Of a stretch of 64,000 nt of DNA, positions 36,031 through 43,405 are shown piece by piece. How positions within the stretch are numbered: position 1 is the first letter of the stretch; every line of letters begins with the position of its first letter. The notes under the pieces are model-generated. The model saw nothing but the letters and a program-made list of their open reading frames with translations. It was not told the origin of the DNA and searched no databases. Both the position numbers and the translations under genes were made by a program. Source of the DNA: a bacterium HR37 (GTDB lineage Bacteria > Desulfobacterota_D > UBA1144 > Nemesobacterales > CSP1-2); contig BEIN01000002.1 of assembly GCA_002898375.1 (NCBI GenBank), positions 128,347 to 192,346 of the forward strand. The letters run 5' to 3'.

Positions 36031-36609
36031 ATGAGCAAAAGAGCCAAAATCTTACCACTTGCCCTTGTTCCCGTTCTTGTCCTTTTAGGACTTTACTTTA
36101 AAGCCTATGAAAAGGCGGCCGAAAGCAGCACAAAAGGTCCCCAACAGCCTATTCTCTTCAGCCATAAGATCCATGCAGGGGAGAACCAGATTCCGTGTGA
36201 GTACTGTCATAGCTATGTCACCAAATCCCCAAAACCCGGGATACCTTCTATGCAAAAGTGCATGGGATGCCATCTGCAGGTTGCTGGTCGGGATGTGGAT
36301 TACGAGTATGATGGAAAAAAGATCAACATAAAGCAGGAGATTCAAAAGTTAAAGGATTACTGGGATAAAAAGACACCCATTGCATGGACAAAGGTTTATT
36401 ATCTTCCGGATCACGTCCACTTTAATCACAAGAGGCATGTTCTTCGCGGGATTGAGTGTAGAACCTGTCACGGTGATGTTGAGAATATGGATGTTGTCTA
36501 TCGTGTCCCAAAACTTGAGATGGGGTGGTGTATCGGTTGTCATGAGCAGAATGCCAGGAACGAGGAAGAGTTAACACAGCTTAAAGACTGCTTGACCTGT
36601 CACTATTAA
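36031..36609 (+). CDS. actA: Alternative complex III subunit ActA, pentaheme cytochrome c
   Basis: 192 aa. An N-terminal membrane helix (about 5-25) is followed by five CxxCH haem sites: CEYCH, CMGCH, CRTCH, CIGCH and CLTCH. This matches the five-haem class III-type cytochrome subunit of ACIII, which passes electrons from the iron-sulfur subunit on the periplasmic face. It leads the operon and ends 13 nt before the actB ATG. Confidence 0.92.
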   Translation: MSKRAKILPLALVPVLVLLGLYFKAYEKAAESSTKGPQQPILFSHKIHAGENQIPCEYCHSYVTKSPKPGIPSMQKCMGCHLQVAGRDVDYEYDGKKINIKQEIQKLKDYWDKKTPIAWTKVYYLPDHVHFNHKRHVLRGIECRTCHGDVENMDVVYRVPKLEMGWCIGCHEQNARNEEELTQLKDCLTCHY

Positions 36610-36622
36610 TTTGGAGGGAAAT

Positions 36623-39577
36623 ATGCAGGAAAATAAGAGGGGTGGAATAAAGAGAAGGGATTTCCTAAAGATTATAGGGGTGGTGGGAACTACCGCTGCT
36701 GTTACAGGAGGGTGTTCTTCAGAGCCTGTGGAGCAGATAATCCCTTATGTTATTCCACCTGAAGACATAGTTCCCGGTATTCCAAAGTGGTATGCAAGTA
36801 CATGTCTGGAGTGTCCAGCAGGGTGTGGAATTGTTGTAAAGAACCGTGAGGGAAGGGCAATTAAAATAGAGGGAAACCCAAAGAATCCTGTTAACTCTGG
36901 TAGCCTTTGTGCGCGTGGACAGGCTGCGCTTCAGGGACTGTATAACCCTGATCGTATAAGATCCCCTCTTGTAAAGGATTCCTCAGGTAGGTTTAAACCC
37001 CTTGATTGGGGTAGTGCTGAGAAGACACTTCTGGAAAAAATACAGAGTCTTAAAGAGCAGGGTAGGGGTGATAGGATTGTATTTATGAGTGGTAATATCT
37101 CTGGAAGCCTTGAAAGGCTTATAAAGGACTGGCTAGGTGCAATTGGTGGCGGAAAGCATCTGGTGTATGAGACCTTTGCTTATGAGCCGCTAAAACAGGG
37201 CAATAAAATTGCCTTTGGGATGGATAAAATCCCAACCTATCACGTTGAAAAAACCAGATTTGTGCTCTCATTTGGTGCGGACTTTCTAGAGACCTGGCTT
37301 TCCCCTGTAGAGTATGCAAAGAAGTTTGGCCTTATGCACAGTTATAAGGAAAAGAGTATGGGAAAGTTTGTTCAGATTGAGCCCAGGCTTTCCCTTACGG
37401 GTGCGAATGCTGATGAGTGGATAGCAATAAAACCTGGAACAGAGGCGTTTCTTGCCCTTGGCATAGCACATGTTATTGCAACTGAAGGGTGGCACTCAAG
37501 TGGTATTTCAAAAGAGGAAGTGGATATGTTGGTAGCTCTCCTTGGCCGCTTTTCACCCGATAGGGTTTCTTCTATAACGGATGTTCCATCAAGCACCATA
37601 AGGAGGCTTGCAGAGGAATTTGTGAGGTTAAGACCAAGCATTGCAATAGGTGTTGGAGCAGCAAATACCTCAACCAGTGCAACTCAGACTGTGGTTGCTA
37701 TAAATATACTGAATTACATAGCTGGTAATACAAGGGAAATCGTTAATTTTGGGGAATCTCTAACGATATCGAAGGCAAGCTCTTTTAAGGATATTGCCTC
37801 TCTGGTTGATTCTATGTCAAAGGGAGAGGTTGAGCTTCTTTTCGTTCACAATACAAACCCTGTTTTTACGCTCCCCGATGCCCTCGGTTTTAAAGAGGCA
37901 CTTAAAAACGTTCCCTTTGTTGTGAGCTTCTCTACCTTTATGGATGAAACTACAGAGCTGGCAAGTCTTGTTTTGCCAGACTGTACAACCCTTGAGAAGT
38001 GGGGGGATTATGTTCCAAGAGAGGGGGTCTATGGGCTGGTTCAGCCTGCAATGGAGCCGGTTCCCCTATTTAATACAAAACCCATTGGTGATGTGATTCT
38101 TTCTCTAAGCAAGCAGTTAAGCGGGCTTGAAGAGCTTTTTCCACAGCAGAGCTTTTTTGAGTATCTAAGAGATTCTTGGAGGGCAATTCACTCAGAGGTT
38201 GCTCCCAATAAGGATTTTGAAACGTTTTGGAGTGAATCACTGCAGGATGGAGGTGTTTTTAGAGAGGTAGCTTCACCAGAGGTTCGGCTTTCTAGGGATA
38301 TTCTGGGCGTTGATTTTTCTGAACCGAGTTTTAACGGTGAGGGAAGCCTCTATCTCATGGTGTATCCTTCTTCAAGGTACTATGATGGTAGAGGAGCCAA
38401 TAAGCCTTGGCTTCAGGAGCTTCCTGACCCCATTACCACAGGTGTTTGGGACTCCTGGATCGAGCTTCACCCTGATACCGCAAAGAAGCTGGGGGTTAAG
38501 GAAGGTGATTTCCTTTTGGTTGAGTCCGCTTATGGAAAGATAGAGGTACAGGCATTTTTGTATAAGGGAATAAGACCGGATACAGTAGCCATTCCAATTG
38601 GGCTGGGTCATGAGAGCTATGGGAGGTACGCTGAAAAGATTGGGGTAAACCCGATTAAGATTCTTCCTCTAGCCTATGATGCCCTCTCAGGTGGTCTTGC
38701 TTGGCTTTCTACCAGGGTAAAGATTTCAAAGACGGGAAGGTGGGCAAGGTTTGTAAAAACCCAACAGACTACCTCACAGGCGGGAAGGGGAATTGCTCAG
38801 GCTGTTGGCCTAGAAGAGATTCGAAGGGGTTTGGTAAAACGTGAGGAGCACCATGAACCAGATATGTACAAACCCCATGATCACAAGCATAGGTGGGGTA
38901 TGTCTATAGACCTTTCAAAGTGTATAGGATGTGGGGCCTGTGTAACCGCCTGTTATGCTGAGAATAACGTTGCTTTTGTGGGGAAGGAACAGGTAGCACG
39001 AGGGCGTCATATGTCTTGGATCAGGATAGAGAGGTTCTTTGAAGAGGAAAGTGGGTTTGAGGCAAGATTTATCCCCATGCTATGCCAGCACTGTGACAAC
39101 GCCCCCTGTGAGCCTGTCTGCCCGGTCTATGCCACCTACCACAACTATGAAGGGCTAAACGTTATGGTATACAACCGTTGTGTTGGAACCAGGTACTGCT
39201 CAAACAACTGCACGTACAAGGTGAGGCGGTTTAACTGGTTTACCTATAAATGGCCTGAGCCTCTTAACTGGCAGCTTAACCCTGATGTTACGGTAAGGAC
39301 GAAAGGGGTTATGGAAAAATGCACCTTCTGCTCTCAACGGATAATATACGCCAAGGATAGGGCAAAGGATGAGGGACGGTTCCCTAGAGATGGGGAGATT
39401 ACTCCTGCGTGTGCTCAGACCTGCCCAACAAAAGCGATTGTCTTTGGAGACTTAAAGGATCCTGAAAGCGAGGTCTCCAGGCTTTCAAAGGATGAAAGAG
39501 GTTATCATGTACTAGAGGAGATAAACACAAAACCTTCAATCACCTATCTAAAAAAAGTAAAGTGGGATAGAGTATAA
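36623..39577 (+). CDS. actB: Alternative complex III subunit ActB, molybdopterin-oxidoreductase-like iron-sulfur protein
   Basis: 984 aa, start chosen at the ATG behind GGAGGG rather than an in-frame TTG within the ribosome site. The N-terminus has a twin-arginine signal (KRRDFLK) and a lipobox-like TGGC, suggesting Tat export and lipid anchoring. The long first part is a molybdopterin-enzyme-like fold that still has CLECPAGC and a later SLCARGQ. The last 250 residues carry ferredoxin cysteine groups (CIGCGACVTAC, CQHCDNAPCEPVC, CTFC, CAQTCPTKA). Confidence 0.93.
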   Translation: MQENKRGGIKRRDFLKIIGVVGTTAAVTGGCSSEPVEQIIPYVIPPEDIVPGIPKWYASTCLECPAGCGIVVKNREGRAIKIEGNPKNPVNSGSLCARGQAALQGLYNPDRIRSPLVKDSSGRFKPLDWGSAEKTLLEKIQSLKEQGRGDRIVFMSGNISGSLERLIKDWLGAIGGGKHLVYETFAYEPLKQGNKIAFGMDKIPTYHVEKTRFVLSFGADFLETWLSPVEYAKKFGLMHSYKEKSMGKFVQIEPRLSLTGANADEWIAIKPGTEAFLALGIAHVIATEGWHSSGISKEEVDMLVALLGRFSPDRVSSITDVPSSTIRRLAEEFVRLRPSIAIGVGAANTSTSATQTVVAINILNYIAGNTREIVNFGESLTISKASSFKDIASLVDSMSKGEVELLFVHNTNPVFTLPDALGFKEALKNVPFVVSFSTFMDETTELASLVLPDCTTLEKWGDYVPREGVYGLVQPAMEPVPLFNTKPIGDVILSLSKQLSGLEELFPQQSFFEYLRDSWRAIHSEVAPNKDFETFWSESLQDGGVFREVASPEVRLSRDILGVDFSEPSFNGEGSLYLMVYPSSRYYDGRGANKPWLQELPDPITTGVWDSWIELHPDTAKKLGVKEGDFLLVESAYGKIEVQAFLYKGIRPDTVAIPIGLGHESYGRYAEKIGVNPIKILPLAYDALSGGLAWLSTRVKISKTGRWARFVKTQQTTSQAGRGIAQAVGLEEIRRGLVKREEHHEPDMYKPHDHKHRWGMSIDLSKCIGCGACVTACYAENNVAFVGKEQVARGRHMSWIRIERFFEEESGFEARFIPMLCQHCDNAPCEPVCPVYATYHNYEGLNVMVYNRCVGTRYCSNNCTYKVRRFNWFTYKWPEPLNWQLNPDVTVRTKGVMEKCTFCSQRIIYAKDRAKDEGRFPRDGEITPACAQTCPTKAIVFGDLKDPESEVSRLSKDERGYHVLEEINTKPSITYLKKVKWDRV

Positions 39578-40911
39578 TGAGCCAAGAGACAACCATAACT
39601 TATTCTAAGGTAAATGAAGACATAATAAAGATGCTTGATAAGCCCACTGTTAAGTGGTGGGCTCTTTTCGTTTTTGATCTTATTGTTTTGGGTATAGGCC
39701 TTTTGTGTTTTCTCTATCAGGTCTACACCGGACTTGGAGTTGCTGGATACAGCCATCCTGTTTTCTGGGCGGTCTATATAACGAACTTTGTGTTCTGGGT
39801 AGGAATTGCTCATTCTGGTACCCTGATTTCAGCCATCCTTTTCCTCTTTAGGGCTAGGTTTAGGATGTCCATATACAGAATTGCTGAGGCTATGACGGTT
39901 TTTGCTGTGCTTACCGCGGGTCTTTTCCCAATCATACACCTTGGAAGACCTTGGAATTTCTACTGGCTTATACCTTATCCTAACCAGCGTGAGCTTTGGG
40001 TAAACTTTAGGTCTCCTCTCATATGGGATGTGTTTGCGGTAAGCACCTATCTAACGATAAGTTCGGTCTTCTTTTTTGTTGGAATGATTCCGGATATAGC
40101 AGCAATAAGGGACAGGGTAAAAGAGGTTCCAAGGAAGATAATCTACACGATACTCTCTCTGGGCTGGAAGGGGTCAAATTGGGAGTGGATGCATTATACA
40201 AGGGCTTATCTGTATCTGGCTGCCTTTGCAACCCCACTTGTTATCTCTGTTCATAGCGTTGTGTCCTGGGACTTTGCCATGGCAAATACCCCTGGGTGGC
40301 ATACAACCATATTCGCCCCTTACTTTGTTGCTGGTGCTATTTTCTCAGGGCTTGCAATGGTAATAACGCTTGTTGTTCCGATTCGTAGGATCTTCCACCT
40401 TGAAAAGTATATAACCATATCGAACTTTGAAGCCATGGCAAAGATGATTATCCTTACCTCACTTATCGTTTCTTACGCGTATGGTGTGGAGTTCTTTATG
40501 GCCTGGTACAGTGGGAATCCCTACGAGTGGGAACAGTTTAAGTACAGGGCAACGGGTGATTATGCTTTCTTCTACTGGCTTATGGTTTTTTGCAATTCTC
40601 TGGTACCTGTTCTTCTTTGGTTTAAAAAGATACGTACAAACATAAAAGCCCTTTTTATAATATCTCTTTTTATAAATATAGGTATGTGGTTTGAGAGGTT
40701 TAACATAATAGTGATTTCGCTATCTCATGAGTTTATGCCAAGCACCTGGAACCTCTATAAGGTCTCCCTTGTTGAGCTTGGTATAACTGCGGGAAGCTTT
40801 GCCTGGTTCTTTATGTTCTTCCTCTTGTTTATCAAGACCCTTCCTGCAGTATCAATTGCTGAGTTAAAGGAAATCTTGCCAGCACCTGTTAAGGAGGCAA
40901 AAACAAAATGA
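39577..40911 (+). CDS. actC: Alternative complex III subunit ActC, NrfD-like quinol-binding membrane protein
   Basis: 444 aa, with about ten membrane helices of the NrfD/PsrC family. It is the likely quinol oxidation site of the complex. HPVFWAVYITNFVFWVGIAH and the HSVVSWDFAM segment are typical. Its ATG overlaps the actB stop (TAATG) and its end overlaps actD by 4 nt, so translation is coupled. Confidence 0.93.
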   Translation: MSQETTITYSKVNEDIIKMLDKPTVKWWALFVFDLIVLGIGLLCFLYQVYTGLGVAGYSHPVFWAVYITNFVFWVGIAHSGTLISAILFLFRARFRMSIYRIAEAMTVFAVLTAGLFPIIHLGRPWNFYWLIPYPNQRELWVNFRSPLIWDVFAVSTYLTISSVFFFVGMIPDIAAIRDRVKEVPRKIIYTILSLGWKGSNWEWMHYTRAYLYLAAFATPLVISVHSVVSWDFAMANTPGWHTTIFAPYFVAGAIFSGLAMVITLVVPIRRIFHLEKYITISNFEAMAKMIILTSLIVSYAYGVEFFMAWYSGNPYEWEQFKYRATGDYAFFYWLMVFCNSLVPVLLWFKKIRTNIKALFIISLFINIGMWFERFNIIVISLSHEFMPSTWNLYKVSLVELGITAGSFAWFFMFFLLFIKTLPAVSIAELKEILPAPVKEAKTK

Positions 40912-41420
40912 CAAAGGGTCAAGGTGTGCTGGGAATATTCTCTTACGTTGATTCAACGGTTGAGGCAATAAGAAACCTTAAAAAAGCCGGTTACAAAGAT
41001 ATAAAGGCTTTCTCTCCGGTTCCAAACCATGAAATAGAAGAAGAGCTTAAGGAAAGGGAAAGTATAGTACGCTTTTTTACACTGACGGGAGGAACTCTGG
41101 GGGCAATATGTGGAATCTCTTTTACCGTTCTTACCTCTTTATCATGGCCTATTCAGACCAGTGCAAAACCAATTGTGTCTTTGCCCCCGTATATGATTAT
41201 AGTTTTTGAGTTAACCGTTCTTCTGGGTGGACTTGCAACCCTTTTGGGGTTGCTTATAAATGCCAGGTTGCGAAAGAACATTCCCTTTAGCTTGTATGAT
41301 CCAAGGTTTTCGGAGGATAAGTTTGGGGTCTTGGTTGTCTGTAAAAAGGATGAGGTAAGGGATGTGGAGGGTATTTTAAAATCGTCTGGAGCAGAGGAGA
41401 TCAAGTTTGAAGGAATTTAG
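40908..41420 (+). CDS. actD: Alternative complex III subunit ActD (DUF3341)
   Basis: 170 aa with two membrane helices in the middle and the DUF3341 pattern: an N-terminal soluble part (GIFSYVDSTVEAIRNLKKAG), TLGAICG at the first helix, and a soluble end with FSLYDPRFSEDKFG. It is a structural subunit of ACIII. The start overlaps actC as ATGA. Confidence 0.9.
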   Translation: MTKGQGVLGIFSYVDSTVEAIRNLKKAGYKDIKAFSPVPNHEIEEELKERESIVRFFTLTGGTLGAICGISFTVLTSLSWPIQTSAKPIVSLPPYMIIVFELTVLLGGLATLLGLLINARLRKNIPFSLYDPRFSEDKFGVLVVCKKDEVRDVEGILKSSGAEEIKFEGI

Positions 41421-41459: not shown

Positions 41460-41990
41460 TTGACTGTCAGATTCAAGAGGTTTTTTCTTATCCTTGTAGT
41501 GGTGTTAGCAGCGGGAACCATAAGGGTGTTTGGCTGGCCTTGGTCTACAGATATGTGGAAACAACCATCTATAAAGCCTTATAGAATGCCTCTTAGATAT
41601 CCTGAATTCTCTGTTGCAACGGATGGAACAAGATTGGAACCGTTACCCAGGGAGGAGTTTGAAAAAATAACCCAAAACCCTAAAAGACCAACGGCTGCTT
41701 CTTTGGAAAACGGACAGAGGCTATTTAATACCTTTTGTGCAGCTTGCCATGGTATGGATGGAAAAGGGAATGGTCCGGTAATAAAGAGGGGTTTTTATCC
41801 TATGGATCTTACTTCTGTTGGTGTTAAGGGAAGAACTGATGGTTACATATATGCTTATATAAGATACGGTGGTAAGGTAATGATGCCAAGCTACCGTGAA
41901 AATGTATCTTCTGAGGAGGCTTGGGATATCGTAAACTACGTTAGAAAACTTCAAGGAAAACTCAACAATACCGTGGAGGAGAATCAGTAG
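41460..41990 (+). CDS. actE: Alternative complex III subunit ActE, monohaem cytochrome c
   Basis: 176 aa. An N-terminal hydrophobic segment (about 7-25) acts as signal or anchor; no lipobox cysteine is present. GWPWSTDMWKQP and EFEKITQNPKRPTAASLENG are family segments. One haem site, CAACH, with a likely Met ligand in MMPSYRE. It starts with TTG behind AGGAGG. Confidence 0.9.
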   Translation: MTVRFKRFFLILVVVLAAGTIRVFGWPWSTDMWKQPSIKPYRMPLRYPEFSVATDGTRLEPLPREEFEKITQNPKRPTAASLENGQRLFNTFCAACHGMDGKGNGPVIKRGFYPMDLTSVGVKGRTDGYIYAYIRYGGKVMMPSYRENVSSEEAWDIVNYVRKLQGKLNNTVEENQ

Positions 41991-41993
41991 CAA

Positions 41994-43247
41994 ATGGATG
42001 AGAAAGCCAAAGAAGAGTTGCTTCTAAAAAGAGCGCGGCCTCCAAGGTGGCTGTTTTTCATACTAATTCTGCTAATGATTGCAGGAATTGTTACGTTTAT
42101 ATCAGGTGTGGTTGGCCCTCATGCCAAGGAGGCCTGGCAGATTTACCTTGTTAACTTCCTTTTCTGGGCTGGCGTTGCACAGGCAGGGGTTGTTTTTTCA
42201 TGTGCCCTCCGTATTACCTCTGGAAGGTGGGGAAGACCACTTCTTAGGATAAGTGAGGCTTTTAGTTCTTTTATACCCGTCTCTTTTGTTTTGCTCCTTG
42301 TTCTGTTTCTTGGAAGAGAGTATGTTCTGCCGTATGCAACTGAGCACTATCACCATCCAAAGGATATCTGGCTTAGTATTCCTTTCGTGTTTGCAAGAAA
42401 CGTTATTGGTATTTTTATCCTCTCTGTGCTTAGTCTCATATACGTTTACTACTCTTTGAGACAGGATCTTGGAGAGGTTAAGGATAGGCTGTCTGGTATA
42501 TGTGGATGGATAGCCTCGGATTGGAAAGGCGAAGAAGATAAGAGAAGATGCTGGGATAGGCTTTCTAAACTTGCACCTGCTATTGCGCTTATCTACGCTC
42601 TTACCTTTAGCATTATTGCTTGGGATTTTATTATGTCACTTGACCCACACTGGTACAGTACGTTGTTTGGTCCCTTCTACTTTGTGGCCAGTTTTGTTGC
42701 TGCACTGGGTGCAACTATAATTTTATCTTCTTTCGTTAGAAGGTATCTTGGTCTTCAGGACTATATAACCCAATTTCAGTTCTACGATATAGGTAAGCTG
42801 CTTCTGGGTTTCTCGATGTTCTGGGTCTACCTAATGTTTTCCCAGTTTCTTCCCATATGGTATGGAAATATGCCTGAGGAAACGGTTTTTGTTATAAAGC
42901 GTGTTAAGGAAGAACCATTCAGAACCCTTTCCTGGGTTGTGATCTCGTGTTGTTTCTTCTTTCCCTTTGTAACACTTCTTCCCAGAACCAATAAGGTGGT
43001 TCCCCCTATACTTGCGTTTATTGCCTCGGTTTCTTTTGTGGGTTTTTGGCTTGAGAAGTTTGTCCTTGTTATCCCTTCTCTTTCTCATGGGATTGAGTTT
43101 GGTCTGATGCAGCTTTTAATCACGTTAGGTTTCTTTGCAACCTTTGTTTTTATGTTTCTAGTATTTATAAAGTCCTTTCCGGTTCTTCCCGTAGGGGATC
43201 CCCTGTTTCCCGGAAAGGGTGATTCCGGTCACTCTGGAGGGCATTGA
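41994..43247 (+). CDS. actF: Alternative complex III subunit ActF, second NrfD-like membrane protein
   Basis: 417 aa, about ten membrane helices, paralogous to ActC: FLFWAGVAQAGVVFSCALRI and SIIAWDFIMSLDPHW. In ACIII it is the second quinol-side or proton-path subunit. It ends in a His/Gly tail overlapping a 52-codon gene (TGATG). Confidence 0.92.
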   Translation: MDEKAKEELLLKRARPPRWLFFILILLMIAGIVTFISGVVGPHAKEAWQIYLVNFLFWAGVAQAGVVFSCALRITSGRWGRPLLRISEAFSSFIPVSFVLLLVLFLGREYVLPYATEHYHHPKDIWLSIPFVFARNVIGIFILSVLSLIYVYYSLRQDLGEVKDRLSGICGWIASDWKGEEDKRRCWDRLSKLAPAIALIYALTFSIIAWDFIMSLDPHWYSTLFGPFYFVASFVAALGATIILSSFVRRYLGLQDYITQFQFYDIGKLLLGFSMFWVYLMFSQFLPIWYGNMPEETVFVIKRVKEEPFRTLSWVVISCCFFFPFVTLLPRTNKVVPPILAFIASVSFVGFWLEKFVLVIPSLSHGIEFGLMQLLITLGFFATFVFMFLVFIKSFPVLPVGDPLFPGKGDSGHSGGH

Positions 43248-43405
43248 TGGAGGAGTACGATTACAACTTGGAGAGATTTACACAGCTTGTGGTTGCAATT
43301 CTTGCAATAGGGGTTTTGGGTTTTATTCTTACGGTAGCTGCGGTTGCCCTTTTTGGCCCACATATACAGGATTACCTAAAAGGGCTCCCATGGGGTGTTG
43401 GTTAG
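43247..43405 (+). CDS. 52-aa single-helix protein, candidate accessory subunit of alternative complex III
   Basis: Short gene translated as MEEYDYNLERFTQLVVA..., with one membrane helix at about residues 13-37 and a short end GLPWGVG. The ATG overlaps the actF stop as TGATG and is preceded by a perfect Shine-Dalgarno GGAGGG five nt upstream. Position at the operon end, coupled start and single helix make a small respiratory-complex subunit likely. I cannot name a family, and homology to any known ActG/ActH chain is not checked. Confidence 0.75.
   Translation: MEEYDYNLERFTQLVVAILAIGVLGFILTVAAVALFGPHIQDYLKGLPWGVG

Follow-up and report, generated by a model that had tools for sequence, protein, structure and literature searches.

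A conserved single-helix gene after actF in Dadabacteria: a candidate small subunit of alternative complex III

The ACIII operon and its last gene

The window, meaning the whole 64,000-nucleotide stretch of DNA analyzed here, carries an alternative complex III (ACIII) operon in the canonical order actA-actB-actC-actD-actE-actF, with a small open reading frame (ORF) in last position. All seven genes lie on the + strand. The operon begins with actA (36031–36609), a multiheme cytochrome c gene with Pfam Cytochrome_C7/Cytochrom_CIII matches, and actB (36611–39577), which encodes a fused B1/B2 iron-sulfur subunit with Pfam Molybdopterin and Fer4 domains. These are followed by the NrfD-like actC (39577–40911; Pfam PF03916, 6.5e-27), actD (40908–41420; Pfam ActD PF11821, 1.8e-43) and the monoheme cytochrome c gene actE (41460–41990; Pfam PF13442/PF00034). 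The product of actF (41994–43247) is an NrfD-like membrane subunit of 417 aa that matches ActF of 6f0k (4e-36), 6btm, 8k9e and 6lod. With actA to actF identified and the next gene, for a luciferase-like monooxygenase, on the opposite strand, the small ORF does end the ACIII operon as the first-pass annotation of this DNA had placed it. The other gene flanking the operon is purM.

The small ORF spans 43247–43405, stop codon included, and encodes a 52-aa single-helix peptide, MEEYDYNLERFTQLVVAILAIGVLGFILTVAAVALFGPHIQDYLKGLPWGVG. Its 52 codons occupy 43247–43402 and its TAG stop 43403–43405. The ATG (43247–43249) shares one base with the actF stop codon TGA (43245–43247), forming a TGATG overlap at 43245–43249. 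Five nucleotides upstream (CATTG) lies a Shine-Dalgarno sequence, GGAGGG, at 43236–43241, inside the final codons of actF, where the same bases encode the ending Gly-Gly-His-stop. Both the overlap and the ribosome-binding site had been reported in the first-pass annotation, and the sequence bears them out. Translation could also begin at an in-frame TTG (43244), but conservation of the ATG in relatives makes that less likely. Most relatives retain a GGAGG-type site within the 3′ end of actF and a TGATG or TAATG overlap between the two genes. Because the Shine-Dalgarno sequence sits in the end of actF and the start overlaps its stop, translation of the small gene is probably coupled to that of actF. 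In genus g16 (loci L008 and L014), ∼50–100 nt separate actF from the small gene, which has an AAGGAG-type site of its own; such coupling is therefore not universal. A peptide split off ActF as a fragment was also considered and ruled out, as ActF is full length (its residues 27–417 align to 6lod_F).

The gene had been described as too short for usual gene calling. This is doubtful: standard bacterial gene callers have a minimum of about 30 aa, and 52 aa is thus within their reach. What the gene lacks is a family name.

The single membrane helix claimed from the sequence holds up in both hydrophobicity and structure prediction. The peptide has one hydrophobic helix, and the hydrophobicity of its homologs agrees. 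AlphaFold, given 10 natural rows, likewise predicts one helix over residues 2–45 with a mean pLDDT of 80 and a less confident tail. Most families combine an acidic N-terminus with a slightly positive tail, a pattern that by charge would suggest an N-out, C-in orientation; the small-genome family f8 departs from it. One-sided periodicity of the conserved helix positions was not significant (p 0.2–0.5), and the assignment of a docking face by one-sided conservation was dropped on that ground.

Coding potential and distribution within Dadabacteria

Substitution patterns were compared in 43 pairs within genera and families with dS < 1.5. The median dN/dS of the peptide is 0.086 (maximum 0.25), close to the ActF median of 0.063; read in its two remaining frames, this DNA yields 1.5 and 3.5. 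Between the peptide of the window and its nearest relatives, dN is about 0.2 with dS saturated; identity to those relatives is about 70%, equal for the peptide and ActF. The first-pass annotation had named an unconserved peptide, with synonymous and non-synonymous changes at equal rates, as the outcome that would speak against a gene; the opposite was found. The small gene is real and under strong purifying selection. An untranslated chance ORF, for which short length alone could be cited, has a negligible chance of explaining phylum-wide conservation, these substitution rates, and a conserved start and ribosome-binding site.

Every homolog has glycine at position 37, and almost every one has proline at 38. 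In most genomes the peptide is 46–52 aa long and ends about 12 residues past the helix, in most families with the residues LPW; the tail of f8 differs. In one species, two loci from the same contig region (L017:1399–1650 and L024:5251–5502) encode an 84-aa peptide that extends beyond LPW with an Arg-rich, low-complexity segment, as if the normal stop had been lost.

The first-pass annotation had proposed looking for conserved short ORFs after actF in related genomes, and these proved to be the rule. The relatives nearest in ActF are Candidatus Dadabacteria together with metagenome-assembled genomes of the same group labelled Deltaproteobacteria or Thermodesulfobacteriota. From those that are named we take the label ‘Dadabacteria’ for the 58-genome phylum. 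Most relatives yielded homologs already in a single-sequence search. A profile built from 34 homolog sequences then found the peptide in 56 of the 58 phylum genomes (E ≤ 4e-11), with one strong match per genome. ActF is present in the identical 56 genomes. In every one of them the peptide gene lies directly 3′ of actF, on the same contig and strand by coordinates and no more than 109 nt away. In searches of the 58 genomes, the remaining two (G006 and G034) lack the peptide, ActF and ActD alike, so within Dadabacteria the gene is present if and only if ActF is present. The absence in G034 is informative because this assembly, of about 1.6 Mb and 91% complete, is a single contig. Its genus mates keep ActD, ActF and the peptide, and G034 has apparently lost ACIII. 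Separately, in the small genomes of f8 (G053, G055, G050 and G051), actC and actD lie on other contigs than actF and the peptide gene, either because the assemblies break there or because the operon is split in this streamlined family.

The peptide looks like a partner of ActF: the two genes co-occur strictly, adjoin and mostly overlap, each genome has a single strong match, and the constraint resembles that on ActF. The main rival to a structural role is an ACIII assembly or insertion factor, a membrane chaperone that would bind ActF or ActC transiently and be absent from the finished complex. Certain single-helix small proteins of respiratory operons do act in this way, and the shared operon, the coupled position and the co-loss with ACIII would all be expected of such a factor; position and co-loss fit it equally well. 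Translational coupling and an evolutionary rate like that of ActF would be expected no less of a partner in fixed stoichiometry, and we regard the assembly factor as unlikely, though the most serious of the alternatives.

Relation to ActG and to families outside the phylum

The peptide has no match above cut-off in Pfam or NCBIfam and only chance matches in the PDB, whether searched as a single sequence or as a profile. Homologs were likewise missing from the named non-Dadabacteria ActF loci and from 39 whole ACIII-bearing genomes outside the phylum, where the best match (E 0.09) fell inside long ORFs. By record title, these outgroups include Gemmatimonadota, Deltaproteobacteria/Myxococcales, Oligoflexales, Zixibacteria, KSB1, Bacteroidota and others. 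Sixty genomes of one Bacteroidota class gave no homolog and three weak matches, none near ActF. Within what was searched, the family appears confined to Dadabacteria.

The closest known parallel is ActG. In Rhodothermus marinus (R. marinus), ActG has one predicted transmembrane helix and was detected by mass fingerprinting; it is missing from some act clusters (PMC5928083). In the Chloroflexus aurantiacus structure 8k9e it is a solved chain (8k9e_G). In genomes of the Bacteroidota phylum, actF is often followed by an ORF for a single-helix protein of 125–184 aa with a conserved LNSY...IPIxxAM tail, and ActG-type ORFs come after actF in 13 Bacteroidota-phylum loci. The best PDB match of their profile is 8k9e_G, with an alignment exactly over this tail; at E 0.11 the match alone is weak, and we take these ORFs as ActG homologs because they share both the motif and the operon position. 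Four of the ActG-type proteins (L152, L155, L156 and L157) carry an N-terminal transposase-type helix-turn-helix (PF01527, 1.1e-6 in L155), followed by the membrane helix and an IPIxxAM-like tail. Such a fusion is odd within a respiratory operon.

Like ActG, the Dadabacteria peptide is encoded next to actF in the act operon and has one predicted transmembrane helix. This slot and topology class, as in the Bacteroidota-phylum loci, are what a truncated, diverged ActG without its periplasmic tail would show. However, ActG is at least 112 aa long with a segment after the helix, and the LNSY...IPIxxAM segment common to the Bacteroidota-phylum proteins and 8k9e_G is absent from the much shorter peptide and its homologs. 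Against ActG-type profiles, hhalign returned probabilities of 1.7% and 0.2%. Moreover, a search of the 58 Dadabacteria genomes for ActG gave nothing convincing, with one marginal match over the helix region only. A truncated ActG is thus improbable, and judging from sequence comparison the peptide would not be ActG, though it sits in the ActG operon slot.

A candidate accessory subunit and its parallels

We consider it probable that the peptide is a small accessory membrane subunit of ACIII, Dadabacteria-confined as far as tested. A probable undescribed subunit is indicated because the gene is phylum-wide, always follows actF and occurs only in ACIII-bearing genomes. Among the literature searched, no paper dealt with the ACIII of Dadabacteria. 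It would be accessory because the core complex works without the small gene in other phyla. The first-pass annotation had asked whether the peptide is one of the additional short helices of ACIII. A real gene strictly tied to the ACIII operon was found, but it has neither a matching PDB chain nor an ActG tail, and its sequence does not support identity with a reported extra helix. Membership in ACIII is likely.

Probably produced in step with ActF by way of the Shine-Dalgarno sequence in the end of actF and the overlapping start, the peptide would span the membrane once and continue into a conserved Gly-Pro bend and the short tail. Most likely it packs against the ActC/ActF/ActD membrane module. 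Elsewhere, ActG is thought to stabilize or help assemble this module. Going by this precedent and by further one-helix subunits of respiratory enzymes, the simplest role of the packed helix would be to stabilize the module or aid its assembly. A helix that instead links ACIII to an oxidase or cytochrome partner is also conceivable, since ACIII-oxidase supercomplexes form in other bacteria (PMC5928083, PMC8552683). The locus holds no pointer to an oxidase, its neighbors being the luciferase-like monooxygenase gene and purM, and we rate a supercomplex helix as very improbable.

Many bacteria use ACIII in place of complex III, and its mechanism of coupling is not yet settled. If the peptide is a subunit, the ACIII subunit list is incomplete for Dadabacteria, and its sequence is one to seek in maps and proteomes. 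More tentatively, a phylum-specific small subunit unrelated to ActG may occupy the ActG slot as an independent way to stabilize or tune the proton-translocating ActC/ActF module. Set against ActG, the peptide suggests that having a peripheral helix close to ActF is of enough use for one to have evolved at least twice.

Small additional subunits of ACIII have precedents. ActH of R. marinus is periplasmic, forms a three-helix bundle and is limited to R. marinus and its near relatives (PMC5928083). The peptide resembles it as a candidate lineage-restricted extra, and differs from that periplasmic bundle in being a single helix. As a candidate small ACIII subunit beyond ActABCDEF, it also resembles ActI, reportedly an extra small subunit of the C. 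aurantiacus complex; no PDB chain, those of the solved ACIII complexes included, matches the peptide profile in a searched set whose inclusion of ActI is unconfirmed. Other respiratory complexes offer a broader parallel. CydX, CcoQ and PetL/M/N are about 30–60 aa long, have one membrane helix, are often encoded by the last gene of their operon, and stabilize a large membrane subunit. The Dadabacteria peptide is, like these, a small one-helix product, with an unrelated sequence and a different complex as its probable partner.
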